From Acidobacteriota bacterium (GTDB taxonomy: Bacteria; Acidobacteriota; Thermoanaerobaculia; Multivoradales; J023): a stretch of 52,011 bases of DNA. Position 1 is the stretch's first letter. Every line of letters starts with the position of its first letter. The translations under genes were made by a program, and so were the position numbers. The notes under the pieces are model-generated. The model saw nothing but the letters and a program-made list of their open reading frames with translations. It did not search any database and had not been told where the DNA came from. Below, in pieces: positions 19,068-41,979 of the stretch. The stretch spans positions 1 to 52,011 of the forward strand of contig JAJCXO010000019.1 of assembly GCA_029263395.1 (NCBI GenBank). The letters run 5' to 3'.

Positions 19068-19520
19068 ATGAGCACACCCCAAGACCGGATCCAAAGCGAT
19101 ATCAAAGAAGCTCTCAAGGCGCGGCAGACCGAGCGTCTGGCAACCCTTAGGATGCTGTTGAGCGAACTCAAGAACGAAAAAATCCGCGCCGGCCAAGAGG
19201 TCGATGATGAGGCCTTCGTGCGGGTAGTCCGCAAAGGCGTCAAGCAGCGCCAGGATGCCGCCGAGCAATTTCGCGCTGGCGACCGCGAAGAGATGGCGGC
19301 GAAAGAAGAGCGCGAGGCCGAGATCCTGACCGCTTATCTTCCGCAGCAGATTGGTGAGGAAGAAATTCGTGCCGCCATCGAAGAACTGGTGGCCGCTGAA
19401 GAGCTCTCTGGCCCACGGGCTATCGGTGTGGTCATGAAGGCGATGATGACGCGCTTCGGCAGCGCTGCCGATGGGCGGACCATCAACCAAGTCGCGCGCG
19501 ACGTGCTGGCTTCGAGCTGA
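19068..19520 (+). CDS. yqeY: GatB/YqeY-domain protein
   Basis: A 150-residue protein of the YqeY family. It shows the family pattern IQSDIKEALKARQTERLATLRMLLSELKNEKI at the start, then AEQFRAGDREEMAAKEEREAEILTAYLPQQ, and the C-terminal GRTINQVARDVL. The fold is shared with the C-terminal tRNA-binding domain of GatB, suggesting a tRNA-related role, but the function is not established. It is followed after 13 nt by selB. Confidence 0.92.
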   Translation: MSTPQDRIQSDIKEALKARQTERLATLRMLLSELKNEKIRAGQEVDDEAFVRVVRKGVKQRQDAAEQFRAGDREEMAAKEEREAEILTAYLPQQIGEEEIRAAIEELVAAEELSGPRAIGVVMKAMMTRFGSAADGRTINQVARDVLASS

Positions 19521-19533
19521 CCGGCGGCGTTGC

Positions 19534-21450
19534 ATGCGACGCGTTGTCATCGGTACCGCGGGTCATATCGACCACGGTAAAACCAGCCTGTTACAAGCCC
19601 TGACCGGGATCGATTGTGATCGATGGGCAGAGGAGAAGGCTCGCGGCATCACTATCGACCTTGGATTCGCCCACCTCGAGGACAATGATCCGGAGCGAGG
19701 TGCACTGCAAGTCGGCTTCGTTGATGTACCGGGCCACGAGCGGTTTCTTCACAATGCGTTGGCCGGGCTTGGTGGCATTCGCATCATGGTACTGGTGGTG
19801 GCGGCGGACGAAGGTGTCAAGCCGCAGACCCGGGAGCATCTTGCGATCTGCTCGTTGCTCGAGATCCCGCATGGCATCGTGGTGCTGACCAAACGCGACC
19901 TGGTCGATGATGACCTGCTCGAGCTGGCTCAGCTCGAAGTGGAGGAAGAGCTCGAAGGGTCGGCATTTGCGGGCTCGGATGTGGTGGCAGTATCGAGTAC
20001 CACCGGCGAAGGCATCCCTGAGTTGCGGCGCCGACTGTTGGAGCTGGCTCACGCCACCGCCGTCGACAGTGACCCGACGCGGCCGTTTCGCCTGCCGGTC
20101 GACCGTGCCTTTCAATTGCGTGGCCTGGGAGCGATCGTCACTGGCACCTTGATCAGCGGGCGAGTCGAGCCCGGGCAGACCCTGAGTGTGCTGCCGCGAG
20201 ACGTCAACGCTCGCGTCCGCAGTCTGCAAGTGCACGGTGAGAGTCGTCCCAGCGCTGAAGCAGGGGAGCGCACTGCGGTGCAGTTGACCGGCATCGATCT
20301 CGACAGCCTGGAGCGCGGTGAACAATTGGTGAGCTCCGAGACTTTTGTGACCACCCGCAGCCTCTGTGCCCGCTTCACCCTCCTGGACGACGCCCCAGAG
20401 CCGATCAAGACGTTTATCCCGATTCGATTCCACCTCTACTCGAGTGAGGTAGTCGGTAAATTGCGACCCCTCGGCGGAGCACCGCTGGCTCCCGGCGAGA
20501 CGACCGCTGTTGAGATCCGTCTCAGCCAACCGGTGGTGGCGATCCGGGGTGACCGTTTCATCATCCGGCGGCCGTCGCCGGCCACCACCCTCGGTGGCGG
20601 TGTGATTCTCGACTCAGGCTGGCGCAGGCGTCGCGGGAAGTCGCTTACCGCTGCTGTCGCCGCGCTCGACGACGCGGATAAGGCGCTCGAGTTGTGGGTT
20701 ACCGAAACCGGAGAACGCGGCGCTACCGCCGCGGAGATTGGGCCCCGCCTCGGGCGGACCGCCGCCGAGCTCACCGTTGAGCTCGATCGATTGACTTCGG
20801 CGAATCGCCTGCTACGGGTCGACTCGGGGCGCGGTCGACGATGGATTGCACCACCGGTCAGCCAACGCGTCCTAGATCGTGGCAAGAAGGTCCTCACCGA
20901 GTTCTTTCGTGACGATCGGCTCGCCCGGGGGATGCCCAAGGCTCAGTTTCTAGGGCAGGTGCTGCCGCGAAGGGCGATGGATCTCGCCGACGTTTACCTC
21001 AGCTGGCTGAGTGCCGCCAAGATTCTGGTGGTGGCTGGTGACGTGGTCAATCGGCCAGGGCGGCAGGTGGAGCTCAGTGGCGAGGAGTCGAAACTATCGC
21101 GTGCGGTGCTGGCCGAAGTCGAGGCCGGTGGCCTGGCACCGCCTGCTCCGGTTGAACTGCGAGCCACAATTGGTGCCAAACGCCAGATTCTCGACGGCGT
21201 GCAGCGTTACTTGGTGGAGCAAGGCAAGCTGGTTCGCCTGCCCTCCGGCTTGATTCTCGCCGCGTCTGTGATCGCCAACTTGCGGCGCGATCTCCTGGAC
21301 ACCGGGTGGCAAGAATTCACCGTCGCCCAATTCAAAGACCGCTTCGATCTCAGCCGCAAGTGGGCGATTCCCCTCTTGGAGCATCTCGACTCGATCGGGG
21401 CGACGCGCCGGGTTGGTGATAAACGGCAAATTGTTGGCCTCGGATCTTAA
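19534..21450 (+). CDS. selB: Selenocysteine-specific elongation factor SelB
   Basis: A 638-residue GTPase that brings Sec-tRNA to UGA codons marked by a SECIS hairpin. From ATG 19534: G1 [12 protein letters not shown] (residues 7-18), the SelB-typical [24 protein letters not shown] (23-46), G3 DVPGHERF (64-71) and G4 TKRD (119-122). EF-Tu-like beta domains 2 and 3 follow. The C-terminal ~250 residues contain the winged-helix repeats that read the SECIS RNA (for example [26 protein letters not shown]). Length and domain order are normal. No selA, selC or selD was seen in the window. Its presence implies that some UGA codons in this genome encode selenocysteine, which bears directly on the interrupted gene at 38731-41979. 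Confidence 0.95.
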
Positions 21451-22102: not shown

Positions 22103-25100
22103 GTGAGAAACACTTGGATATCTAAGACTTTCAGCTCGGCAATGGCACCTGTCGCCCTGGTCATGCTGGCGCTGCTCTTGGCTCCGTCTGCTGCCCAGGC
22201 CGAGGAGCCTTACGTCTGTTTCCCGACGTGTTCACGGGTTGATGGACGGATGCTGTCCGTCGCCGGTGTCGCTGGTAACGGTCTGGTGCAAGAGATCGTC
22301 CTGCGCGTCGCTGTTTCGGCCGACGATCCCGACATCGAGATTGACGTCTTCGATGCCGACACCGGAACTACCTGGGATAGCCCGGGCGGTACCGACGCGG
22401 TGCTCTTCGAGTTGTTCGCGGACCCTAATGGGGACGGCACCGGTACGACGTCGATTCTCGGCCCGGTTGACGGCAACACCTTGGCTGGTGCCGACAACAA
22501 TTGGGTCAACATCGTGTCGATGCCGAATAGTCCGCTGGCCCTGGCGCCGTCGGGCAACTATGTCTATCGCTTGCTGGTTTCTCTCAGTGCGCCGACAGGA
22601 AGTAGCTGGTCTAATTTCAAGGTACGTACCAGGGGTGTGGTTTCCACCGCAACGCTGACCCCAATTCCGGGTATCTTTGCGCTCACCGCGCCGCTGTTCT
22701 TCAATCCTCTCGAGATACCGGCGATTTATCCGAATGCCGCGTTCTTCGAGATCGAGCCGACCAACTTTGATGGCACGGTCAATCTTTTTGTTGATTTCCC
22801 CAATGATGCGTCCTTTTTCGAATTTTTCGAGGGTGACAGCGATCGTGGCCGTGGCGACGGCACGGATCTCGACACCAATGACCCGAACTCGGACGATCTT
22901 GCGGTGCCGCCTTTTGCGGTGGGAACCAACGCCCGACCCGAGGGTGTGGCGTTTGTCGACTCTTGTACTACCGAAGTTTCGGCAACCGCTTGTCCGGCAG
23001 ATGATCGCTCGGACGTGTTCTTCCAGCGTTCACCGAGTATCCAGATTCGCCTCGTGACGCCCACCGGCGAAGAATTCCTGGAAAGCAACCCCTCCGGTGA
23101 ACTCGAGTGGGAGCGGATCCGGCTTTCGAACTCCCCGGTGTTAGATCCGTCGGTAGACGATTTTGTCACCAGCAGCATCCCAGCGGGGCTCTATCAAGTA
23201 CGTCTCGAGGGAATCGACCTGTCGAACCTCAATGCGTTCAGCTTCTCGGAAGAAGTAATCGGTCTCTGTCAGGGTTTGGATACACCCTGCCGTCGCAGCC
23301 TGCGCTCCTTTCGACTGGGCGACACGGTCTTCTTGGACCTCAACGGTGACGGCGTTCAGCAATCGCCCACCGAACCGGGTATTGGTGGCGTGATCATGGA
23401 TCTGCGGGGCAGCGCCGGGTCGCTGCTCGGCAGCCGGGTGACCGATGCCAACGGTAACTACACCTTCGAGGTCGCGGCAGGCACCTACACGGTCGAAGTT
23501 GCAGCTGAGAACTTCACGCCTCCCGGTGCTGGAGGTGTTGTTGGTGATCGGGTTTGGCTCGATATCGATGGTGACGCGATAGATTCCGGCGAGCCGGGGC
23601 TGAGCAATGTGCGGGTCGAGTTGGTAGACACGGTCAATGGGGTCGCTGGTGATGCCGACGATAAGGTGATTGGCTCCATGCTGACCGATGTCAACGGCAA
23701 CTACATCTTCGCGGGTCTGCCGGCGGGAACCTATTTCACGCGGGTCATCGAATCGACGGTGGCGTCGGGGTTGGCGTTGTCTGGCGGCGGCTCGAATCCG
23801 AGCCCAATGCGAACCATCCTAGCGAGTGGTGCCTGTTCCGAGCCGGATTGCCTCGACTTGGACTTCCCCTATACCAGTGGCGATCCAGCGACCGCAGTCG
23901 CCGGTGACTATGTGTGGTTCGACGCCAATGGCGATGGCCTCCAAGGGGCGGACGAAGTCGGCTTTACTGGTGTCACGATGCAGCTGATTAATACCACGAC
24001 CGGTCGGATAACGGATATGACGACGACCAATGGTGGTTTCTATCTGTTCACCGGTTTGATACCGGGTGATACCTACGTCATCACTGTCACCGACCATGCC
24101 GATGTCTTGACCACCTTCACCGCGACCAGCCCGGTAACAAGTCCGAGCTCCGCACCCTTTACTCCAGCGGCCGGTGACGTGCTGTTGGACAAGGACTTTG
24201 GATACACCACGGGTTCTTCGGCGACGATTGCCGACCGGGTGTGGGCCGACGACAACCAAAACGGTCTGCTGGATGGCACCGAGACCGGGATTGCTGGCGT
24301 GACGGTCAACCTGCTCGACTTTGCGGGCTCAGTGGTGGCTACGACCTCGACCGTCGTAGACGGCAGCTTTGCCTTCGCGAATCTGCCGACTGGCCTCTAT
24401 TCGGTGGTGGTCTCAGATCTCACCGATCTCACCAACGGGCGATTGCCGACAACCACCGAGTCGTTGCAGGGCCTCGAGATTGTGCTCGGTGGCGGTGGCG
24501 CCGGTGGCGAGAGCTTCGGCTACGCGCCGGTGTCGACGGGTGCCCTCGAGGGGCTCACGGGAACCACCATCAAGGCGCCAAACGCCAACGTCGATGTCCA
24601 AACCGATGCCGTGCCGGTTGGTGACCCGGCAGGTAACAACGTCGATTTTGATTTCGGGTATCGGGCGGCCCTCGGCTCGATCGGTGACCGGGTCTGGCAC
24701 GACACCAACGAGGATGGCGTCCAGGATGCCGGCGAAGTTGGGCTCAACGACGTCGTGGTCGAGTTGGTGGACAACACCAACACGGTACTCGCGACCCGTA
24801 CCACGGCAGGTGATGGCGACTATCTGTTCGAAGACCTCGAGGCAGGGGACTACTCTGTCAGAGTGGACGCGAGCACCCTACCGAGCAACTTTGCGCAGAC
24901 CTTTGATCTCGATGGCTTGCTGTCGCCGAATGCCGCGACAGTGACGCTCACGATTGCGGAAGATCGGCGCGATGTCGACTTCGGGTACGACGAGTGTGCC
25001 CCTTGCGCCGGCAAGGTGAGCCAGTTGAGTTTGGTCTACCTCGGTGCGCAGATGGACGCCGAGATCCAGGTCCTTGGCAAGCGTGGCCCGAACACCGACG

Positions 25101-26359
25101 AACTCTTCAACGAGACCTTGCAACCGGGTGAAGTGTTCGACCTGACGGGGCCGCTGACAGGCAATCCAGGTTTCAGTGGAACGTTGGGGACGACGATCGA
25201 GATCTACGTCAACGGTGTTCTCCACACCACAATCCACACCAGCTGCTCGGTACCGATCGGTCCTGGTTTGGTGAGCGGCGACTTCCAGGTCGTGTCGGGC
25301 TCCAGCAAACACGGTGGCTTGCTCTGTCCGGTCGGCGGTGATGGCGGTGGCGGAAACGATTGTGTGCCGATCCTGGTGCGCGACGACTTTGACACCGTAA
25401 CCTTTGACAACAACGACGGTACCAGCGATTGGGCTGCTGGCTGGATCGAGAACGATACGCTGGCGGGGGGAGCTGGTCCTTCAGCTGGCCAGGTGCAGAT
25501 CCACGACAGCTTGCTGACGCTCGACGATCAGCCGAACACCGGCGGGCAGCCGAGCATTGCTCGTGAAGTCGATCTCTCGGGCGCTACGAATGCAACGCTC
25601 CGCTTCAAGTACCTGACCAGTTCTGGGGTCGACCGCAGCGACGCTGTTACGGTTGAGGTCTCGAACGATGGCGGTGCGAACTGGACGAAGCTGAAGAAAA
25701 TCACCGGCATCACTGGAGCGGTGACTCGGACCAAGGAATTCGATATCTCGAGCTTCATTTCCGAGCAGACACAAATTCGATTCCGGGTGTCGAAGTATTA
25801 CGGTGGTCAGAACGAGTTCTTCTGCCTGAGTTTCGTCGAGATCGAGACCGACTGCACGGACTGCCAGGCGGTCGATGTGATCGACGACTTCGAAGTCGAG
25901 GCCTTCGACAACAACGACGGCCCTGATTCCTGGTCCAGTGCCTGGATCGAAAACGATCCGGCATACAACGGTCAAGGGCCATGGGCTGGCCAGGTGCAGA
26001 TCCACGATGGGCTCATCACGCTCCATGACTACCCGAACACCGGTGGCCAGCCGAGCATCGCCCGTCAGGTTGACCTCTCGGCAGCCAGCACCGCGACCCT
26101 CAGCTTCGACTTCTACACCAGTGGTGGCGTCGACTATGACGACGCGGTTACGGTCGAGGTGTCGAATGATGGGGGGGCAACCTGGACGACGCTCGAAGTG
26201 ATCACCGGCATCTCCGGCGCGGCGAGCGGGATTCGAGATATCGATATTTCATCGTTTGCATCGGCTGAGACCCAGGTGCGCTTTCAGGTGTCGAACAAGT
26301 ACGGTGGCAGCAACGAGCTGTTCTGCCTGGGCTTCGTGAGGATCACAGCCTCTTGCTGA
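22103..26359 (+). CDS. Giant secreted SdrD B-like repeat protein, paralogue 1
   Basis: A 1,418-residue exported protein starting at GTG 22103 (AAGGAGG upstream). The signal peptide ends LLLAPSAAQA. An N-terminal ~380-residue domain (starting YVCFPTCSRVDGRMLSVAG) is nearly identical to that of the next gene. Five SdrD B-like repeats follow, each opening with a Ca2+-type motif: GDTVFLDLNGDG, GDRVWLDIDGDA, GDYVWFDANGDG, ADRVWADDNQNG and GDRVWHDTNEDG. The C-terminus has two ~150-residue beta-sandwich copies (DDF...FDNNDG, IENDP/T, AGQVQIHD, PNTGGQPSIAR, TVEVSNDGG). No LPxTG, PEP-CTERM or type IX signal was recognised, so how it is retained is unknown. Likely a surface or matrix adhesin. Confidence 0.88.
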   Translation: MRNTWISKTFSSAMAPVALVMLALLLAPSAAQAEEPYVCFPTCSRVDGRMLSVAGVAGNGLVQEIVLRVAVSADDPDIEIDVFDADTGTTWDSPGGTDAVLFELFADPNGDGTGTTSILGPVDGNTLAGADNNWVNIVSMPNSPLALAPSGNYVYRLLVSLSAPTGSSWSNFKVRTRGVVSTATLTPIPGIFALTAPLFFNPLEIPAIYPNAAFFEIEPTNFDGTVNLFVDFPNDASFFEFFEGDSDRGRGDGTDLDTNDPNSDDLAVPPFAVGTNARPEGVAFVDSCTTEVSATACPADDRSDVFFQRSPSIQIRLVTPTGEEFLESNPSGELEWERIRLSNSPVLDPSVDDFVTSSIPAGLYQVRLEGIDLSNLNAFSFSEEVIGLCQGLDTPCRRSLRSFRLGDTVFLDLNGDGVQQSPTEPGIGGVIMDLRGSAGSLLGSRVTDANGNYTFEVAAGTYTVEVAAENFTPPGAGGVVGDRVWLDIDGDAIDSGEPGLSNVRVELVDTVNGVAGDADDKVIGSMLTDVNGNYIFAGLPAGTYFTRVIESTVASGLALSGGGSNPSPMRTILASGACSEPDCLDLDFPYTSGDPATAVAGDYVWFDANGDGLQGADEVGFTGVTMQLINTTTGRITDMTTTNGGFYLFTGLIPGDTYVITVTDHADVLTTFTATSPVTSPSSAPFTPAAGDVLLDKDFGYTTGSSATIADRVWADDNQNGLLDGTETGIAGVTVNLLDFAGSVVATTSTVVDGSFAFANLPTGLYSVVVSDLTDLTNGRLPTTTESLQGLEIVLGGGGAGGESFGYAPVSTGALEGLTGTTIKAPNANVDVQTDAVPVGDPAGNNVDFDFGYRAALGSIGDRVWHDTNEDGVQDAGEVGLNDVVVELVDNTNTVLATRTTAGDGDYLFEDLEAGDYSVRVDASTLPSNFAQTFDLDGLLSPNAATVTLTIAEDRRDVDFGYDECAPCAGKVSQLSLVYLGAQMDAEIQVLGKRGPNTDELFNETLQPGEVFDLTGPLTGNPGFSGTLGTTIEIYVNGVLHTTIHTSCSVPIGPGLVSGDFQVVSGSSKHGGLLCPVGGDGGGGNDCVPILVRDDFDTVTFDNNDGTSDWAAGWIENDTLAGGAGPSAGQVQIHDSLLTLDDQPNTGGQPSIAREVDLSGATNATLRFKYLTSSGVDRSDAVTVEVSNDGGANWTKLKKITGITGAVTRTKEFDISSFISEQTQIRFRVSKYYGGQNEFFCLSFVEIETDCTDCQAVDVIDDFEVEAFDNNDGPDSWSSAWIENDPAYNGQGPWAGQVQIHDGLITLHDYPNTGGQPSIARQVDLSAASTATLSFDFYTSGGVDYDDAVTVEVSNDGGATWTTLEVITGISGAASGIRDIDISSFASAETQVRFQVSNKYGGSNELFCLGFVRITASC

Positions 26360-26865: not shown

Positions 26866-29800
26866 ATGAGTCCTGCAACCAAGTCACCCAGACGCGCGAT
26901 AAGGCAGCTTTATCAAGCTGCTGCGATCCTTTTTACTCTGACTCTCATTCCGGGAACAGCGTGGGCGGCAGATCCCTTTGTCTGTTTCCCGACCTGCTCA
27001 CGAGTCGATGGCCGCATGCTGTCGGTGGCGGGCGTGGCCGGTAACGGCCTGGTCCAAGATATTGTCTTGCGGATCGCTGTCTCAGGCGACGAGCCGGGTA
27101 TCGAGGTCGATGTCTTCGATGCCGATACCGGCGCCAACTGGGACAGCCCCGGTGGTGCCGATGCGGTGCTCTTCGAGCTCTTTGCGGACCCCAACGGCGA
27201 CGGCACCGGGGTGGTGTCGGTGTTGGGCCCAATAAACGGCAACACGCTGGTCGGTGCAGACAACAACTGGGTCAACATTGTCTCGTTGGCCAACGTCCCT
27301 GCGGCTCAGGCGCCCTCCGGTAATTTCATCTACCGATTGCAGATTTCATTGGCCAACCCACTCGGCAGCAGCTGGTCGAGCTTCAAGGTGCGGACCAAAG
27401 GTGTGGTGTCGACTGCAACCCTGACCCCGATTCCAGGTATCTTCGCGCTTACCGCACCGCTGTTCTTCAATCCCCTCGAGATCCCGGCGATCTACCCGAA
27501 CGCAGCCTTCTTCGAAATCGCCCCAACGAGCTTCGACGGCAACGTCGATCTCTTCGTCGAGATCCCCAACGATACGTCCTTCTTCGAGTTCTTCGAGGGA
27601 GATAGCGATCGGGGCAAGGGTGACGGTACCGATCTCGACACCGACGATCCCAACTCGGACAACTTGGCGGTACCGCCGTTCGCGGTAGGAACCAACGCAC
27701 GACCTGAGGGTGTTGCGACGGTCGATCCGGGTTGTACGACCGAAGTTGCAGCCACGGCTTGCCCGGCGGATGATCGCTCGGACATCTTCTTTCAGCGTTC
27801 GCCCAGCATCCAGATCCGTATCACCAAGCCCGATGGCACCGAGTTCCTAGAAGATAATCCTTCCGGCGAGCTCGAATGGGAGCGGATCCGTTTGTCCACT
27901 GCCGCGGTACTCGATCCCACCGTGGATGATTTCATCACCGACACTATTCCGGCCGGCCTCTATCAAGTGCGGCTCGAAGGTATCGATCTTTCAAACCTCA
28001 ACGCCTTCAGCTTCTCCGAAGAAGTGGTCGGCCTGTGCCAGGGACTCGACAAGCCTTGTCGGCCGACCCTGCGCTCCTTCAACTTGGGAGACACAGTCTT
28101 CCTCGACCTCAATGGTGACGGCACGCAGCAGGGTGGCGAGCCGGGCCTCGGCGGTGTGATCGTCGATCTCAAGGGTTCGATGGGTACCTTCCTCTCCAGT
28201 ACCGTCACCGACGGCAATGGCAACTACGAATTCGAGGTCTCTGACGGGCAATATACCGTCGAGATCGCAGCCGAGAACTTCGCGCCGCCAGCGGCAGCGG
28301 CAGGCTCGGTTGGAGACCGGGTTTGGTTCGACCTCGATGGTGATGCCATCGACTCCGGCGAACCGGGTCTAGGTAGTGTCACGGTCGAGTTGGTCGATAC
28401 GGTCAACGGCGTCCAGGGTGACGCGGACGATGTGGTCATCGCGACGACCCAGACCGATGTTGATGGTTTCTACATCTTCAATGAACTGGCGGACGGTACC
28501 TACTACACCCAAGTGGACGAATCGACGGTCAACTCTGGACTGTCGCTGTCGGTCGGCGGCTCGAACCCGAGTCCGACGCGGACGATCCTGGCCGGCGGTG
28601 TGTGCTCCGAGCCCGACTGTCTCGATCTCGACTTTCCCTACACCAACGGCAATCCCGCAGCGGCGACGGCCGGTGATCGGGTGTGGTTCGACACCAACGG
28701 TGACGGCGTGCAAGACGCCAGCGAGACCGGTTTGAGCGGTGTCACCCTGCAGTTGACCAACACCACCACGGGTCGGATCGAGGATCTGACGACCACCGTC
28801 GGCGGTTTCTACCTGTTCACCGACTTGATTCCGGGTGACACCTACGTCATCACCGTGACGGATCAGGCCGACGTGCTGACATCCTTGACCGCAACCTTCC
28901 CGGTCACGAACCCGAGTTCGGTTCCGTTCACACCGCTACCTGGCGATGTGCTGCTCGACAAGGACTTCGGCTACAACGAAGCGGTGACGGCGACGATCGC
29001 GGATCGTGTGTGGTCGGACGACAACTTCAACGGTGTGCTGGATGGCGCCGAGACCGGGCTGGCCGGGGTAACGATCAACCTGCTCGACGTGGCTGGCAAC
29101 AGCATCGCCACCACAACCACCGCTGGCGACGGCACGTTCTCCTTTTCTGGCTTGCCGGTCAGCCTCTACCGTGTGATCGCGAGCGATCTCGACGGTGTGA
29201 CTGCTGGGCGCTTGCCGGCTTCGGTGTCCTCGCTCTCCGGTCTGGATCTCAATCTCGATGGCAGCGGTGTCAACAACGAGACCTTCGCTTATGCCCCGGT
29301 GAGTACCGGCGCTCTCGAAGGTTTGGTAGGAACAACGATCAAAGACTCGAACGGTGATGTCGATAGCCAGGCCGACCTCGTGCCGATCGGCGATCCGGCG
29401 GATAACAACCCGAACTACGACTTCGGCTACATCGCTCCGGGTACTCTCGGGGACCGCGTGTGGCAGGACACCAATGGTGACGGTGTGCAAGACAACCCGA
29501 TCGACGAGCCGGGTATCGTCGGTGTCACGGTTGAGCTCTTCGATCCCGACACCGGCATTACCCTGTCCACCACCACGGGTCCGAACGGGATCTACAGCTT
29601 CACCGGCTTGCGGCCGAATGATGACTACGTGGTGACCGTGATCGATAGCACGCTGCCAGCGGACCTCGAGCAGACCTTCGACCTCGATGACCCGGCGCAG
29701 CCAATCAACACACCGAATACCACGGTGGTGTCATTGGGAACCTCGGCACCGGGTGTGACCGCGGATCGCGATGATGTCGACTTTGGCTACCAGCCGATTG

Positions 29801-32097
29801 TCGGTTCGATCGGTGATCGGGTGTGGCTGGATCTCAACAACGACGGAGTGCAAGACGACCCCCTCGTCGAGACCGGCATCAATGGGTTAACCGTCGAACT
29901 GTTGGACGGCGGCGGTTTGGTTATCGACAGCCAGATGACATCCGGCGACGGCAACTATCTGTTCGAGAACTTACCTGCCGGTAACTACACCGTGCGCGTC
30001 GTACCGCCTGCGGGTCTCGTGCAAACCTTCGATATCGATCTACCGCTCGACAACGAGGCCAGCGTCACGCTGAACCTTGGTGACAATCGCACCGATGTCG
30101 ACTTTGGTTACCTCTCGAGTCTCGGCTCGATCGGCGATCGGGTGTGGCACGATCTCGATGGTGACGGTGTCCAGGATGCCGGCGAAAACGGCATCAACGA
30201 TGTGACCGTCGAGTTACTCAATGGTGGCGGCTCGGTCATCACCAGCGATGTCACCTCGGGTGACGGCAACTACTTCTTCGGTGAGCTCCAGGCCGGGACC
30301 TACACGGTGCGCGTCGTCGATACCACGCTGCCCGAGGGTTTCCTCCAGACCTTTGATATCCAAGGGCCGCTCGACGATCAAGCGACCGTGACGCTCGGTC
30401 CTGGTGAGGATCGTGACGATGTCGACTTCGGTTATGCCGATGAGTGCCTGACCGACATCGATTTCGAGACCGACGGTAACGGCGGTACTCTGTCGAAGGG
30501 TCAAATCATCGACGACGAGTGGGCGAAGTTCGGCGTCACCGTGACCACCGACAACCCGATCGTCAATCCGGCGATGATTTTCTACTCGGGCAGCCCAACC
30601 GGTGGTGATTACGATCTCGGTACTCCGAACGAAGATTTCGGCGGCCCGGGGATCGGCAGCGGTGGCAGCGCAGGTGCACCGGGAGCCAACACAGCGGCAC
30701 TCGGCAACGTACTGATCATTTCCGAGGACGGTGACCAAACAGACCCGGATGACGACGCCTCCGGCGGCACCCTGATCTTCACCTTCGCCCATCCGGTGCG
30801 AATTGATCAGATCGGCATTCTCGACATCGATGAAGGTATGGCCGGCAAGATCCGGGCCTTCGATGCTGGCGGGGCGATGATCGGTTCGACCGCCATGGCC
30901 AACAACCTGGGCAACAACAGCGTCCAGACAGTTACCCTCGGCGTCGCCGGTGTGAGCCGTCTAGAGGTTCTCTTCCCGGGTAGCGGTGCGGTTACCAACA
31001 TCGAGTTCTGTGTCGACTGCCAGGTGGTGCAGGTGCGGGACAACTTCAGCACCGATTCCTTCAACAACAACAATGGTGCCGACGATTGGGCCGCTGGTTG
31101 GATCGAGAACGATCCACAGTCCGGTGGTGCGGGACCGTCAGCCGGCCAGGTGCAGGTGCACGATGACCTGCTGACCCTCGATGACCAACCGAACACCGGT
31201 GGTTACCCGAGTGCTGCACGCCAAGTGGATCTCTCCGGTACCCAGAATGCAACGCTGAGTTTCAAGTTCTTGACCAGTTCCGGTGTCGACCCGAGTGATG
31301 CGGTGACGGTTGAGGTCTCGAGTGATGGCGGGGCAACCTGGAGCACCTTGGAAGTGATCACCAACATCCACGGTGCGGTTACCCAAGCGCGCGACTACGA
31401 CATCTCGGCGTTCGCCTCATCGGAGACTCAGATCCGGTTCCGGGTGACGAAGTACTACGGAGGTTCGAACGAGTTCTTCTGCCTCAAGTTCGTCGAGATC
31501 TCGACCGACTGTGCCAACGGTTCCAGCTGTCAGGACAGTGCGGTTCGCGACAACTTCAATGCGGTCTCTTTCGGCAACAATGACGGGCCCGACAACTGGT
31601 CAGCGGACTGGATCGAAAACGATCCGGAAAACAATGGCAAGGGACCCTGGAATGGTCAGGTGCAGATCAACAACAGCCGACTGGTCATGGACGATTACTT
31701 CGATACGGGTTACTACCCGAGTGTCGCTCGTCAGGCCGACCTCTCGGGTGTAACGTCTGCGACGTTGCACTACATATACCTGACCACTTCCGGTGTCGAT
31801 AGCCACGATGAGGTACTTGTCGAAGCGTCGAGCAATGGTGGATCAACGTGGACGGTTGTCGATGTCATCTCCGGCATTACCGGCGCGGTCACCAAACCGA
31901 GGAGTATCGATATCTCGGCCTTTGCTTCGGGAGAGACTCAGGTCCGCTTCCGGATCTCCAAAAACTATGGCGGTTCGGACGAGTCCTTCCTTCTGGAGTT
32001 TGTCGAGATCGAGGGAAAATGTCCCGGCGACAGTTCAGCGAACTCGGGTGGACCGTCGGGCGGGATTCAGCCGGTGATCGGCGGGATCCAACCCTGA
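26866..32097 (+). CDS. Giant secreted SdrD B-like repeat protein, paralogue 2
   Basis: A 1,743-residue exported protein, a tandem paralogue of the preceding gene. The signal peptide ends LIPGTAWAAD. The N-terminal domain (FVCFPTCSRVDGRMLSVAG onward) is almost the same as in paralogue 1. There are seven SdrD B-like repeats instead of five, the last three opening GDRVWQDTNGDG, GDRVWLDLNNDG and GDRVWHDLDGDG. A new ~190-residue domain (about 30450-31020; contains GTPNEDFGGPGIGSGG and a LDIDEG motif) is inserted before two copies of the same C-terminal beta-sandwich. It ends with Gly/Ser/Pro-rich GGIQPVIGGIQP. Expansion by repeat duplication is the simplest explanation. A surface role is inferred. 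Confidence 0.88.
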   Translation: MSPATKSPRRAIRQLYQAAAILFTLTLIPGTAWAADPFVCFPTCSRVDGRMLSVAGVAGNGLVQDIVLRIAVSGDEPGIEVDVFDADTGANWDSPGGADAVLFELFADPNGDGTGVVSVLGPINGNTLVGADNNWVNIVSLANVPAAQAPSGNFIYRLQISLANPLGSSWSSFKVRTKGVVSTATLTPIPGIFALTAPLFFNPLEIPAIYPNAAFFEIAPTSFDGNVDLFVEIPNDTSFFEFFEGDSDRGKGDGTDLDTDDPNSDNLAVPPFAVGTNARPEGVATVDPGCTTEVAATACPADDRSDIFFQRSPSIQIRITKPDGTEFLEDNPSGELEWERIRLSTAAVLDPTVDDFITDTIPAGLYQVRLEGIDLSNLNAFSFSEEVVGLCQGLDKPCRPTLRSFNLGDTVFLDLNGDGTQQGGEPGLGGVIVDLKGSMGTFLSSTVTDGNGNYEFEVSDGQYTVEIAAENFAPPAAAAGSVGDRVWFDLDGDAIDSGEPGLGSVTVELVDTVNGVQGDADDVVIATTQTDVDGFYIFNELADGTYYTQVDESTVNSGLSLSVGGSNPSPTRTILAGGVCSEPDCLDLDFPYTNGNPAAATAGDRVWFDTNGDGVQDASETGLSGVTLQLTNTTTGRIEDLTTTVGGFYLFTDLIPGDTYVITVTDQADVLTSLTATFPVTNPSSVPFTPLPGDVLLDKDFGYNEAVTATIADRVWSDDNFNGVLDGAETGLAGVTINLLDVAGNSIATTTTAGDGTFSFSGLPVSLYRVIASDLDGVTAGRLPASVSSLSGLDLNLDGSGVNNETFAYAPVSTGALEGLVGTTIKDSNGDVDSQADLVPIGDPADNNPNYDFGYIAPGTLGDRVWQDTNGDGVQDNPIDEPGIVGVTVELFDPDTGITLSTTTGPNGIYSFTGLRPNDDYVVTVIDSTLPADLEQTFDLDDPAQPINTPNTTVVSLGTSAPGVTADRDDVDFGYQPIVGSIGDRVWLDLNNDGVQDDPLVETGINGLTVELLDGGGLVIDSQMTSGDGNYLFENLPAGNYTVRVVPPAGLVQTFDIDLPLDNEASVTLNLGDNRTDVDFGYLSSLGSIGDRVWHDLDGDGVQDAGENGINDVTVELLNGGGSVITSDVTSGDGNYFFGELQAGTYTVRVVDTTLPEGFLQTFDIQGPLDDQATVTLGPGEDRDDVDFGYADECLTDIDFETDGNGGTLSKGQIIDDEWAKFGVTVTTDNPIVNPAMIFYSGSPTGGDYDLGTPNEDFGGPGIGSGGSAGAPGANTAALGNVLIISEDGDQTDPDDDASGGTLIFTFAHPVRIDQIGILDIDEGMAGKIRAFDAGGAMIGSTAMANNLGNNSVQTVTLGVAGVSRLEVLFPGSGAVTNIEFCVDCQVVQVRDNFSTDSFNNNNGADDWAAGWIENDPQSGGAGPSAGQVQVHDDLLTLDDQPNTGGYPSAARQVDLSGTQNATLSFKFLTSSGVDPSDAVTVEVSSDGGATWSTLEVITNIHGAVTQARDYDISAFASSETQIRFRVTKYYGGSNEFFCLKFVEISTDCANGSSCQDSAVRDNFNAVSFGNNDGPDNWSADWIENDPENNGKGPWNGQVQINNSRLVMDDYFDTGYYPSVARQADLSGVTSATLHYIYLTTSGVDSHDEVLVEASSNGGSTWTVVDVISGITGAVTKPRSIDISAFASGETQVRFRISKNYGGSDESFLLEFVEIEGKCPGDSSANSGGPSGGIQPVIGGIQP

Positions 32098-38730: not shown

Positions 38731-39834
38731 TCAGGGCCCGAGCCTATCGAGCAGCTTGTGCAGATCCGAGATCGAAGGTACGCCGGCTTCGGCATAGAGG
38801 ACAAGGCCTTCGCGGTCGGTGATGAAGGTGGTGGGCAGAGCTTCGTGATGGAACACCTCGAGAACCTTTGTGCGTACCTCGGCGGCATCCTCCGGCGGGA
38901 TATCAACCAGTAGCCGATAGGGTGGCGTTCGTTTCGAGGCATACCTCAGCAGTTTGTCGCGGTCTTCGTCGGGATCAACAGGCACTCCGAACATCGCCAG
39001 ATCTGAGTTCGCAAAACGATCTTGCAAGCGCCGCAGATGAGGGATCTCGGAGTGACAAGCTTCGCACCAGGTGGCAACGGTAGTGAACATCAGCAACCGT
39101 GCCTCGGATGTTATCCCGTGGCGTTTCGCCACCGTGAGTGTCCAGCCCTGCCTGGATTCAGGTGTAGCGTCTGCAACCGGCTCCTTACGATAGGCCTCGA
39201 CGGTGTAGGTCTGCGCTGTCGGAGACTGGGTGAGGTTTTCGTAGATTGTTACCATAGAACCGGCTGGGATGGATTCCGTAGTCACGAGCTGTCCCGAGGG
39301 CCAGCGCACGGACAACGACCGAACCACGGGCCGAGAGCCCAGCCCAATCAACATTGTCGCCTGATTTTGGGCCGCGAAGCCTTCGCCCGCACGGTGCTCC
39401 CGGTGGATCTGGAGATCCCCGAGATCCGCGGTCACCACCGCGCCAATTCCGTCTCGATTCGACAGCCCTGGGGAGGCCTCGGCCGAGTGATTGCTACCCA
39501 CGAATCGTACGGCTAGATGATGTGGGGTTGCGGCGGCGAGGCTACCGATTCGATTGTGGAAGAGTTGGAAAAACGGAGCGTTGGCGTTGACCATCGCAAC
39601 GTCGAGCCAACCGTCGCGGTCGAAATCGAGCAGGGCAAAAGCGCGGGAATCGCCCGCATGATCGAGACCGGAAAGCCCTGACAGATCGAGGAAGCGTTCG
39701 CCATTTTGGGCCAAGAACAGATGGTTGCGCTCGCGCCCACTGAGCGAGCTCTGGCCGTAGAGCTGGGTCAGCTGTTGTGAGTCGAGATCCGAATCTCCGC
39801 TCAGCCGAATACCGACGTCGGGGTCTGTGCGCAC
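38731..39834 (-). CDS. C-terminal part of FG-GAP/UnbV protein: ASPIC-UnbV domain and TlpA-like thioredoxin domain
   Basis: Continues the same reading frame as the gene at 39856-41979 after an in-frame TGA. If translated separately from GTG 39834 it has 367 residues, but there is no Shine-Dalgarno and the GTG lies inside the hairpin described below, so independent initiation is unlikely. Residues 31-95 are an FG-GAP/VCBS stretch, 128-199 an ASPIC/UnbV domain (GIGAVV...WPSGQLVTTESIPAG), and 240-365 a thioredoxin-like domain with active-site pair CEAC (257-260, in TWCEACHSEIPHL), like TlpA reductases. The protein should be outside the cytoplasm and act in thiol redox chemistry or protein interaction. 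Likely one protein of about 1,082 residues with the upstream part. Confidence 0.82.
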   Translation of the reverse strand: MRTDPDVGIRLSGDSDLDSQQLTQLYGQSSLSGRERNHLFLAQNGERFLDLSGLSGLDHAGDSRAFALLDFDRDGWLDVAMVNANAPFFQLFHNRIGSLAAATPHHLAVRFVGSNHSAEASPGLSNRDGIGAVVTADLGDLQIHREHRAGEGFAAQNQATMLIGLGSRPVVRSLSVRWPSGQLVTTESIPAGSMVTIYENLTQSPTAQTYTVEAYRKEPVADATPESRQGWTLTVAKRHGITSEARLLMFTTVATWCEACHSEIPHLRRLQDRFANSDLAMFGVPVDPDEDRDKLLRYASKRTPPYRLLVDIPPEDAAEVRTKVLEVFHHEALPTTFITDREGLVLYAEAGVPSISDLHKLLDRLGP

Positions 39835-39848
39835 GACCGCGCGCCAGA
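39824..39848 (-). promoter_or_regulatory. SECIS-like hairpin directly after the in-frame TGA
   Basis: On the coding (minus) strand, counting T of the TGA as 1: T11-G14 pairs with C32-A35, A31 is bulged, and G15-C20 pairs with G25-C30 (one G-U). That is a 10-bp stem with loop GGUC (21-24). In E. coli fdhF the loop GGUCU starts at 22, with the same GGUC core, so spacing differs by only 1 nt. The fdhF bulged U17 is absent here. The loop begins with G and 17 nt separate it from the UGA, inside the range I recall for bacterial SECIS elements (about 16-37 nt). Sequence fits; function is inferred. Confidence 0.6.
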
Positions 39849-39855
39849 AGTTACT

Positions 39856-41979
39856 TCACAAATCGACCGGCAACTCGAAGGGAGCCGGCGCTGTGAAGAA
39901 GCCGCTGAGTGCGTAAACGTCGAGAAAACCATCGTTGTCGAGGTCGGCGAGCTGTCCCCCCCAAGACCAACCAGCCTTCTCTACGTGTAAGGCGTCCGGC
40001 GTGTCCCCGGAACGTTTCTCGAACCCGTTGGCAGCGTTGCGAAAAAGCGAGTTGCCGCGGCTCATGATCGGTAGCCTGGAGTCGATCTGAGGCATGTCGC
40101 GTGTGATGCGTCGTCCAGCCTTGCTGTACATGTTGGAGACGTAGAGGTCGGGTCGACCGTCATGGTCGTAGTCGCCCCAGGAGGCCCCCATGCCGAAGCC
40201 AACATCCGCGGTCCCGGTTTCGACGGTGACATCGCTGAAGTGCCCATCACCCTCGTTGCGCAGCAGGTTGTTGGGTGCAAAGTCATTGGCTAGGTAGACG
40301 TCGGCATCACCGTCGAGATCGTAGTCTGCCCAAGTTGATTGGAACGTGTTGCGATAAAGGTCAGGCATCAGCCGCACGGCTTCGAACCGGCCACCGCCTC
40401 GGTTCCTCAACATCACATTGGGTGGGCCAAAATTGTCCATGATCAAATGCTCGGTGCTGGCCAGTTCGAGCCACCGTTGGCGATCCGCCTCGGGTAAACA
40501 CTTGGCCACCAACTCGCCCGGGTCGTTCAGCAGATAACTCTGCATGACCGCGCCGTAGGTCGAGATGTAAACGTCGAGCAGGCCGTCCGCGTTGTAGTCC
40601 ACTGCCGAGACCGACGAGGCCAAGCAGGGCAACGGTTGGTCGACATGGGTCGACGAACGATCGACGAATCGGCCCTCTTCGTTGACCAGGTAGAGGCTGC
40701 GTTCGAGCGTGCGCCCGAGCACCACATCGGCGTCGCCATCGTTGTCGAAATCGGCAAAGATGGCGGACGACGTGTGATCGACAACGTCCAGGCCGAGCTC
40801 ACTCGCGGTCTCTTCAAAGGTTCCGTCGCCACGGTTACGAAAGAAAAGATTGGCACCCCAGCGTGGCATGACGTAGAGATCGTCGTAGCCGTCACGGTCG
40901 AGATCAACCACCGACACACCGGGATGAAGATCGGCGGACGACGTCATGAAATAGGGAAACGCTGAGGTGATCTTGTCGGGATCGGCGAAGTACTCGCGTA
41001 ACCGTTCTTCGTGGATCGAGCGACGAGCCCTGGTCAGCACTGCGGGATCGTCCAGCGCATCATCGAGTACCTCGGCGAACAGTCGTTCCGGTGCCTCCTG
41101 AGTGCTCCACCGAAGGGTGTGCCATTCGGCAATGAACCACGACGACTCTTTGGCTGCAGGGAGTTGCCAGCGCAGGCTCAAATCGATATCCACGGCAACC
41201 CACCGTTTGACCTTGGTGCGCGCCAGGCCTTGGAAGTGAACGTGCGTAACATAGAGATCCGAGCTATCGTCGATGAAACGCCCTTCGACCATCTTGAACT
41301 TGGCATGCTCGAAATACTCGACGTTGTCGAGCAGAGGTCGCCACAAGTTGAGGTTGTTGCTGGCGAGATCCGTCGTTTGGGTTGCAATGGCTCGTTCGAC
41401 CACCTCGACAGCCACCGAGTCGATCTGCTCGGTCGCCGACAGCACTGTAGTCAGGTCGCGCACTGAGACTTGCTCGCTGAACAAACGACGGCTTCCAAGG
41501 TCCGGTAGCCCCAGGTTTTCGACACTGGTTGTCAGTCGATCCAATTTGGGCGTGAGCTCCAGCAACAACTCCTCAGCGGCCGTCACCTCGTCCCATGATG
41601 CGCGTAGCTCGCGATAAGGATCGAGGATCCCTTGAGCGCGGAGATTGCCGTAAATACCGACCAGCAGACTCCCTCCCACCAAAATTCTGGCAAGAGTCTT
41701 GAGGGCGGCTGGGACGTGACGTTTTTGATGCCAAAGCAACGCCACACCGAAGACAATCCAGGTGAGCTGAAAGGCAGCAATCACCATGGTGAATCGCGGC
41801 GAGCCGATCTTGCCGTCGGCAGCAAGGAACGACTCGAGCGCCCACTTGTGCAGTAAAAGCCCGGTGGCCAAGCTCAGCCAACCCAAGCCGCTTCCGATCG
41901 CGTTCCTAGCCGGTCCCTCCCCGGACGGTCCCTCCCCGGACGGTCCCTTCCCAGACGGTCTTTCGTCCAAAGGTGTCAC
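39856..41979 (-). CDS. N-terminal part of FG-GAP/UnbV membrane protein, ending at an in-frame TGA (possible Sec707-708)
   Basis: A 707-residue frame before the TGA at 39858-39856. It begins with a repetitive GPSGEG stretch (residues 7-25) from a 15-nt array, then several hydrophobic helices (about 30-120), a helical region (about 130-340) and FG-GAP/VCBS repeats (VDLDRDGYDDLYV, ADFDNDGDADVVL, VDYNADGLLDVYI, ADYDLDGDADVYL, GDYDHDGRPDLYV, ADLDNDGFLDVYALSGFF). Such proteins form calcium-bound beta-propellers. After the TGA the next codons read SNFWRAVVRTDPD, which fits the FWR stretch that usually follows this propeller in CRTAC1 proteins, so the two parts belong together. The TGA may be selenocysteine; a nonsense mutation is the alternative. 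Confidence 0.82.
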   Translation of the reverse strand: MTPLDERPSGKGPSGEGPSGEGPARNAIGSGLGWLSLATGLLLHKWALESFLAADGKIGSPRFTMVIAAFQLTWIVFGVALLWHQKRHVPAALKTLARILVGGSLLVGIYGNLRAQGILDPYRELRASWDEVTAAEELLLELTPKLDRLTTSVENLGLPDLGSRRLFSEQVSVRDLTTVLSATEQIDSVAVEVVERAIATQTTDLASNNLNLWRPLLDNVEYFEHAKFKMVEGRFIDDSSDLYVTHVHFQGLARTKVKRWVAVDIDLSLRWQLPAAKESSWFIAEWHTLRWSTQEAPERLFAEVLDDALDDPAVLTRARRSIHEERLREYFADPDKITSAFPYFMTSSADLHPGVSVVDLDRDGYDDLYVMPRWGANLFFRNRGDGTFEETASELGLDVVDHTSSAIFADFDNDGDADVVLGRTLERSLYLVNEEGRFVDRSSTHVDQPLPCLASSVSAVDYNADGLLDVYISTYGAVMQSYLLNDPGELVAKCLPEADRQRWLELASTEHLIMDNFGPPNVMLRNRGGGRFEAVRLMPDLYRNTFQSTWADYDLDGDADVYLANDFAPNNLLRNEGDGHFSDVTVETGTADVGFGMGASWGDYDHDGRPDLYVSNMYSKAGRRITRDMPQIDSRLPIMSRGNSLFRNAANGFEKRSGDTPDALHVEKAGWSWGGQLADLDNDGFLDVYALSGFFTAPAPFELPVDL
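41911..41960. repeat. In-frame 15-nt tandem repeat in the FG-GAP gene
   Basis: Three copies of CGGTCCCTCCCCGGA (two identical, the third with two changes) plus a partial fourth, read as GPSGE repeats on the minus strand. Confidence 0.85.

Follow-up and report, generated by a model that had tools for sequence, protein, structure and literature searches.

In the Sec-containing TlpA, Redoxin, and Prx families, as listed in Table 1 of PMC13188914, selenocysteine (Sec) lies within the motif of the thioredoxin fold itself (UGC, UxxC, or TxxU). A different case is GrdA (glycine reductase selenoprotein A), which is named in PMC12013277 as the sole earlier selenoprotein without Cys homologues. The candidate gene described here also encodes a thioredoxin-fold domain, but this domain keeps a CxxC, and the proposed Sec is placed 264 residues upstream, in a β-propeller. 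The candidate is unrelated to GrdA and, unlike it, belongs to a family with a small Cys clade (four sequences). Its closest solved structure is CRTAC1 (9etn), and it shares the UnbV_ASPIC domain of the CRTAC1/UnbV-ASPIC FG-GAP proteins, from which it differs by its TGA site and its fused thioredoxin domain. Its putative recoding signal resembles those of bacterial SelB/SECIS selenoproteins (selD and fdhF), whose protein families are unrelated to it.

A propeller-thioredoxin gene with one in-frame TGA

A preliminary description of the window (the whole stretch of 52,011 nucleotides that was analysed) pointed to a single TGA splitting one FG-GAP/UnbV(ASPIC)/thioredoxin frame. We confirmed that the frame 41979..38731 on the minus strand contains exactly one internal TGA, codon 708, and that its terminal stop is also TGA. 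The features considered below are:

19471..21450, plus strand: selB, Sec-specific elongation factor (TIGR00475, SelB-wing_3 Pfam)
38731..41979, minus strand: candidate selenoprotein gene, with hydrophobic N-terminal stretches, FG-GAP β-propeller, UnbV/ASPIC, and thioredoxin-like domain
41650..41793, minus strand: hydrophobic stretches, residues about 63-110, a probable membrane anchor (hydropathy windows)
39451..40935, minus strand: FG-GAP repeat β-propeller region, residues about 349-843, including Sec708 (Pfam, AF2, PDB match)
39856..39858, minus strand: TGA codon 708, proposed Sec, motif D-L-U-S-N-F-W-R
39824..39848, minus strand: SECIS-like hairpin, 10 bp and one bulge
39835..39838, minus strand: apical loop GGUC
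39250..39450, minus strand: UnbV_ASPIC domain, residues 844-910 (Pfam 2.9e-13)
38794..39093, minus strand: AhpC-TSA thioredoxin-fold domain, residues 963-1062 (Pfam 1.7e-9)
39055..39066, minus strand: CxxC, Cys972/Cys975, proposed reductant of Sec708

The 1082 residues, Sec708 included, represent the whole open frame, and the true start codon may differ. Both halves are coding, as had been claimed: GC content at the three codon positions is 0.63/0.43/0.71 upstream of the TGA and 0.67/0.47/0.67 downstream, and the best Pfam stretches flank the codon (FG-GAP_3 552-614 and FG-GAP 595-621 before it, UnbV_ASPIC and AhpC-TSA after it). The FG-GAP repeats, UnbV_ASPIC, and AhpC-TSA/Redoxin all exceed their Pfam cut-offs, and the NCBIfam models for TlpA/ResA/DsbE score 20.6-26.7 bits, below curated cut-offs of 123-230. 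The first start downstream of the TGA is a GTG at 39834, inside the hairpin; consistent with the preliminary description, no ribosome-binding-site-like sequence was found before it.

An AF2 model of residues 349-945 reached a pLDDT of 82.9 and a pTM of 0.87, and its best PDB match is 9etn (sequence E 7e-53; fold TM 0.66/0.71). The full-length model is poor (pLDDT 57.6). The Sec site itself has a pLDDT of about 48-59 in the propeller model, so we claim no Sec geometry.

The TGA and the thioredoxin CxxC across homologues

To survey the codon at this site, we drew on the loci returned by searches and on 120 fetched stretches (80 + 40). Of 126 deduplicated homologues, 75 have TGA at the aligned position; in a tree widened to a second phylum (sequences below 350 bits or 430 model positions excluded), 127 of 182 sequences do. 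The TGA homologues belong to Acidobacteriota and Planctomycetota. All 129 TGA homologues of at least 300 bits carry only that one TGA within the matched domain. The motif around the proposed Sec is D-[LT]-U-S-x-[FY]-W-R. Neither TAA nor TAG occurs at the site among the 126 homologues. Where a sense codon replaces Sec, it mostly encodes G, A, S, N, Q, D, E, or R; the Cys that the preliminary description proposed to look for is mostly not seen (4/126, all in one small clade). The variability that it ascribed to the site is real among distant CRTAC1-type proteins and sense-codon orthologues, but the TGA subfamily does not show it. Many of the sequences are closely related, for example 14 from one genus. 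In-frame TGAs in five distant sense-type members (L218, L220, L223, L224, and L225) were set aside, since they fall where the matched domain ends and not at the aligned site.

A fused thioredoxin CxxC is present in 111 of 119 TGA homologues (111/120 with L312, which ends at a contig edge) versus 2 of 38 sense homologues, eight of which are short proteins without a thioredoxin domain (2/30 when these are excluded). Among orthologues aligned through this domain, both Cys residues are found in 62/62 TGA sequences, and the first Cys is missing in 16/19 sense sequences. Nine independent tree pairs differ in TGA; CxxC is concordant in 6.1 of them on average and never opposite (sign test, median p 0.031, range 0.016-0.125).

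We consider it likely that the UGA is read as Sec and that the product is a redox protein whose propeller Sec works with its own thioredoxin CxxC, most likely being recycled by that domain. The computational support comprises the conserved UGA, a hairpin tied to it, the Sec machinery, and the linked loss of UGA and CxxC. The product would probably be a membrane-anchored, extracytoplasmic protein, a location that is predicted, in which the Sec of the FG-GAP β-propeller may directly partner the CxxC of the thioredoxin-like domain of the same chain. It would most likely act as a thioredoxin-recycled selenoenzyme of the peroxidase or reductase type.

An unlikely alternative role is that of a Sec that is inserted but not recycled by the fused thioredoxin, acting as a metal ligand or structurally, with Sec and CxxC lost together through a change of redox lifestyle. 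Replacement mainly by residues other than Cys would suit such a role, as would the TGA proteins without a CxxC, namely eight main-class homologues and the LP class (fused CxxC in 0/9). Against it, CxxC never changes opposite to the TGA in the tree pairs, and the 16 sense orthologues that are missing the first Cys still have an alignable thioredoxin region.

The hairpin and the Sec machinery

Just 3′ of the TGA, the RNA folds as the preliminary description had it, into a 10-bp hairpin with a one-base bulge (MFE -15.3 kcal/mol), whose GGUC loop spans +21 to +24. Judged by energy alone, the hairpin is unremarkable (z -0.84; 37/200 shuffles fold equally well), and 9 of 195 other places within the gene have a lower MFE z-score. 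Rfam returned two weak matches at the hairpin, to unrelated families and far below gathering scores. RNAalifold found no consensus pairs in 60 TGA sequences, so we relied on place-specific stem counts and pair counts.

Several observations bear on the hairpin. First, 104 of 119 TGA homologues form a stem of at least 6 bp after the codon (about 12 expected from synonymous shuffles), versus 4 of the 49 sites that have a sense codon (about 4 expected), the 49 including distant Glu clades; rows below 300 bits, without W as the fourth residue past the site, or with N were dropped from this count. Among 21 SxFWR-type sense rows (those below 150 bits or with N in the stretch dropped), four have a 6-bp stem (9.3% expected). 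Second, stem cells are 88.1% paired, and double-change cells number 34 versus 15.9 in shuffles that ignore kinship (0/500). No excess of double-change cells was found in the 21 sense sequences. Two of five pair measures fall within the shuffles (both-sides-changed pairs, 73/500; further pair types, 234/500), and pair n15-n25 also forms in 10/16 sense sequences from the second phylum. Third, MFE z-scores are modest, averaging -0.93 for TGA sequences (n=74) and 0.006 for close sense sequences (n=21; Mann-Whitney p 7e-5). Conservation is what lifts the observation above chance, as many relatives repeat the TGA, the place of the hairpin, and the peptide on either side; relatives with other residues at the site are also without the hairpin, as recoding predicts.

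The selD gene of the same genome likewise has a UGA followed by a hairpin with a GGUC loop at identical spacing (+21 to +24). E. coli fdhF is a further case of a SelB-read, adjacent SECIS with a GGUC loop. The bulged U of fdhF, which the preliminary description noted as missing from the candidate hairpin, does not seem to be required here, since the genome's own selD hairpin matches the candidate both in its loop and in the spacing of that loop from the UGA.

The selB reported earlier in the window scores 346 bits, over cut-off, and a check of the genome for the remaining genes found them all (SelA 534 bits, tRNA-Sec 68 bits, and SelD 365 bits). SelB is over cut-off in 50/55 TGA genomes and in 8/19 sense-only genomes. 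Twelve of the family-bearing genomes tested had no SelB over cut-off and no clear tRNA-Sec (G310, whose SelB is partial, is not counted among them); in 11 of these the site shows sense codons only, never TGA. In one TGA genome, G165 (95% complete), neither a clear tRNA-Sec nor SelB was found. TGA ends 13 of 20 hand-picked long open reading frames of the window and thus looks like a normal stop in this genome; a change of genetic code was considered and rejected.

We infer that the TGA very probably specifies Sec insertion, the reading given in the preliminary description and supported by the conserved TGA, the TGA-linked hairpin, and the machinery. SelB and tRNA-Sec would decode the UGA as directed by the hairpin immediately 3′ of it. 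Bypass without Sec, by plain readthrough or near-cognate decoding that inserts an ordinary residue, is very improbable. UGA is the leakiest stop codon and several residues are tolerated at the site in sense-codon homologues, both in favor of bypass, but the hairpin is kept with the TGA and not elsewhere, the site TGA is absent from those 11 of 12 genomes, TGA looks like a normal stop in the window, and no TAA or TAG takes its place in the 126 homologues. A pseudogene, a sequencing error, or two proteins separated by a genuine stop can be dismissed almost entirely: although the window comes from one draft assembly, the same TGA recurs in many genomes of two phyla, single-contig assemblies such as G047, G116, and G207 among them, which excludes a read error, and a split gene would have no plausible downstream start and a cut propeller.

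Relation to catalogued selenoproteins

The candidate family is absent from the 119-family inventory of 2026 as given in Table 1 of PMC13188914, and NCBIfam has no model for it. This points to a selenoprotein family that is new relative to the catalogues compared, in keeping with the earlier statement that the family was not known as one. Reading Sec708 as recycled by its own thioredoxin, we lean toward the broader view that these proteins form an unrecognised class of self-recycling extracytoplasmic selenoenzymes in Acidobacteriota and Planctomycetota; a Sec in a CRTAC1-like propeller would be reduced by the same-chain thioredoxin, and Sec and the thioredoxin nucleophile would be kept or lost as a unit, with hardly ever a Cys instead.

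If true, the bacterial selenoproteome would gain a large family from two big environmental phyla, along with a testable reason for the retention of Sec machinery in many of their members. Methods that demand Cys/TGA pairs would seem to have a blind spot here, and gene finders that treat TGA as a stop would split such genes. A natural fusion of Sec and thioredoxin would provide a direct system for the study of redox recycling.

The neighborhoods of 16 family loci revealed no conserved partner, with no other protein cluster common to more than two loci; among 104 neighbors, only the TPR and FG-GAP families exceeded three. Several paralogues are often present per genome.

A conserved in-frame UGA in two phyla

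Our computational analysis shows a conserved UGA, a position-conserved hairpin tied to it, the selenocysteine (Sec) machinery, and linkage of the UGA to a CxxC motif, in a family that includes the window's candidate selenoprotein gene. Its features are as follows:

41979..38731 (-), frame of an FG-GAP/UnbV(ASPIC)/thioredoxin protein, terminal codon TGA
39858-39856 (-), single internal TGA, codon 708, proposed Sec site
39824..39848 (-), SECIS-like hairpin

The preliminary description held that both halves of this frame are coding and that the downstream half lacks its own ribosome-binding site. Both points stood: codon-position GC is gene-like on either side of the internal TGA, and no ribosome-binding-site-like sequence precedes the first start codon after it. 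Moreover, Pfam matches to FG-GAP, UnbV_ASPIC, and AhpC-TSA span both sides. The protein has four cysteines, two of them in the CxxC (Cys972/Cys975).

Comparison with homologues across the TGA recovered the same aligned TGA in relatives and genome contigs, within the motif DL*SFFWRQVV. With a profile built from 13 TGA homologues (A1), 97 of 396 genomes of the window's phylum matched at E <= 1e-60. The site codon in 126 deduplicated homologues was TGA (75), GAG (15), GGC (5), GAC (4), TGC (4), a gap (4), or another codon (19), and neither TAA nor TAG was found among them. The window's genome (G000) encodes two more TGA paralogues (L166 on contig C152 and L204 on C55), one with a fused CxxC and the other, without CxxC, of the LP class (DLULP and kin). 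A search centred on a Planctomycetales locus, L012, gave matches at E <= 1e-130 in 71 of the 343 genomes from that phylum; among the matches listed, 15 had no stop and the rest had at least one TGA. Genomes sampled from the phylum of L009, an Acidobacteria MAG, matched at coordinates identical to those from the window's phylum, so the window probably belongs to Acidobacteriota. We took the phylum of L012 as a second one, as no match places were seen in common with the search of the window's phylum. Of 191 deduplicated rows of at least 300 bits, 129 have TGA at the site, and in all 129 it is the sole TGA within the matched domain. Three matches (G700:C78, G894:C31, and G724:C141) contain two or three in-frame TGAs and could be multi-Sec members, terminal stops, or errors. 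In-frame TAA or TAG occurs in G112:C40, G350:C9, and G154:C166 of the first phylum and in G693:C17 and G844:C393 of the L012 search, possibly as decayed copies or gene ends.

Close sense orthologues carry Gly, Ala, Ser, Asn, Gln, Asp, Glu, or Arg in place of Sec, and Cys occurs in one supported clade of four. Sister clades (L115, L210, L211, L213, L215-L217, L224, and L227), which include a Glu clade with the motif EFW, have Pro, Glu, or Trp at the site and no downstream CxxC. According to the excerpted text of PMC12013277, its method may miss selenoproteins without Cys homologues, which could be why this family was missed. Literature searches on selenoprotein or selenocysteine with FG-GAP, UnbV, CRTAC1, Planctomycetes, or Acidobacteria, and on selB, new selenoprotein families, propeller, groundwater/deep-Sep, or GrdA, gave no report of the family among the matches listed. 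A 2026 inventory counts 119 selenoprotein families/subfamilies (PMC13188914); its text lacks "CRTAC1," "FG-GAP," "propeller," and "VCBS," and the excerpted part of its Table 1 has no FG-GAP, UnbV, or CRTAC1 entry. NCBIfam of June 2026 holds no fitting model. PMC4807772, in the part consulted, describes selenoproteins in two planctomycetes and places candidates in a supplementary list, where an earlier mention of the family is possible.

The hairpin downstream of the UGA

The window-gene hairpin folds as first drawn, with 10 bp, one bulge, and a GGUC loop at +21 to +24 (-15.3 kcal/mol), an energy that by itself is ordinary (z -0.84). Since SFFWRQVV is conserved as a peptide, any conservation of the RNA has to be judged against it, and expected stem numbers were taken from synonymous shuffles. 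The count took in unbroken stems whose loop, 3-7 bases long, starts 17-20 bases after the codon and has a G at one of its first two positions. Stems of at least 6 pairs were present in 52/62 TGA homologues of the first phylum (expected 6.7) and 52/57 of the second (expected 5.6), and in 4/33 (expected 3.3) and 0/16 (expected 1.0) sense-codon homologues, respectively. Hairpin presence tracks TGA, including among orthologues retaining SFFWRQVV, where 4 of 21 sense sequences have the stem. The nine LP-class sequences have GGUC one codon later and a mostly 4-bp stem.

Across 60 TGA sequences, pairing holds in 88.1% of the stem cells, and slid versions of the stem score worse than the actual placement. 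Cells changed on both sides numbered 34 vs 15.9 in shuffles (0/500 as high), with kinship ignored; on the same footing, neither pairs with a double change (73/500) nor further pair types (234/500) were exceptional. The 21 sense sequences showed no excess of stem pair changes. In the top covarying pair, which occurs as C-G, G-C, G-U, A-U, and U-A, the third position of the Arg codon pairs with the first position of the codon four further along. Two results speak against the hairpin: RNAalifold predicted no consensus structure for the 60 sequences, and in the second phylum this top pair also forms in 10/16 sense sequences.

Sec machinery in TGA and sense-only genomes

The selB gene reported in the window encodes a SelB of 346 bits, and the window's genome supplies the remaining machinery: tRNA-Sec (68 bits, over cut-off), SelA (534 bits), and SelD (365 bits). 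Its selD (L230, G000:C222) itself has one in-frame TGA (context TCGUAAK), followed by 17 bases and a stem-closed GGUC loop, a spacing it shares with the window gene. The SelD family counts among the verified selenoproteins (PMC13188914, Table 1). This equal spacing provides a within-genome control for what SelB reads.

Among 74 genomes tested, SelB was over cut-off in 50/55 with a TGA homologue vs 8/19 with sense-codon close homologues only (Fisher p 4e-5, uncorrected for kinship). A clear tRNA-Sec (E at most 1.1e-11) turned up in 48/54 TGA genomes (G016 left out) and in none of the 11 sense-only genomes without SelB over cut-off; the top hits in these 11 (E 2.5e-8 or weaker; in G159, 47.6 bits vs a cut-off of 47) resemble background from other tRNAs. 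Six TGA genomes showed no clear tRNA-Sec. SelB exceeds its cut-off in four of them (G055, G146, G314, and G431) and is partial in G310; G165 (L195, a 95% complete draft) has no SelB over cut-off.

Linkage to CxxC and a proposed mechanism

In the W class, which has Trp as the fourth residue after the site, a CxxC downstream of UnbV, often WCxxC, occurs in 111/119 TGA homologues and in 2/38 sense-codon homologues (L138, Asn; L149, Ser). An alignment through the thioredoxin domain in the first phylum has both cysteines in 62/62 TGA sequences; 16 of 19 sense orthologues lack the first, eight of these keeping the second. On a tree built without the Sec site, TGA changed at least 12 times and CxxC 16. 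Of nine independent pairs with a difference in TGA, on average 6.1 differed in CxxC in the same direction and 2.9 not at all, and none differed in the opposite direction (median p 0.031; range 0.016-0.125). Sec and the thioredoxin nucleophile thus behave as a single unit. Exceptions are the LP class (CxxC 0/9) and eight main-class TGA proteins.

An AF2 model of the propeller (residues 349-945) is good (pLDDT 82.9, pTM 0.87), and its best PDB match is CRTAC1 (9etn, TM 0.66/0.71), also the best by sequence (7e-53). Sec708 is predicted to start a helix, in a stretch of low model confidence. We propose that Sec would be inserted at the UGA of a probably membrane-anchored and extracytoplasmic protein and may carry out a redox step on a peroxide, sulfoxide, or disulfide. 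Cys972/Cys975 of the same chain would then reduce Sec and be reduced in turn by a putative CcdA/DsbD-type partner. Glutathione peroxidases have a Sec/Trp pair, of which the Sec-x3-Trp spacing here is reminiscent.

Two loci from different phyla, L338:1898-6479 and L345:1818-6586, have PSCyt1/DUF1549/DUF1553 and DUF1501 genes in the vicinity of the TGA gene. The window also contains two very long ORFs, at 22103-26359 (1418 aa) and 26866-32097 (1743 aa).
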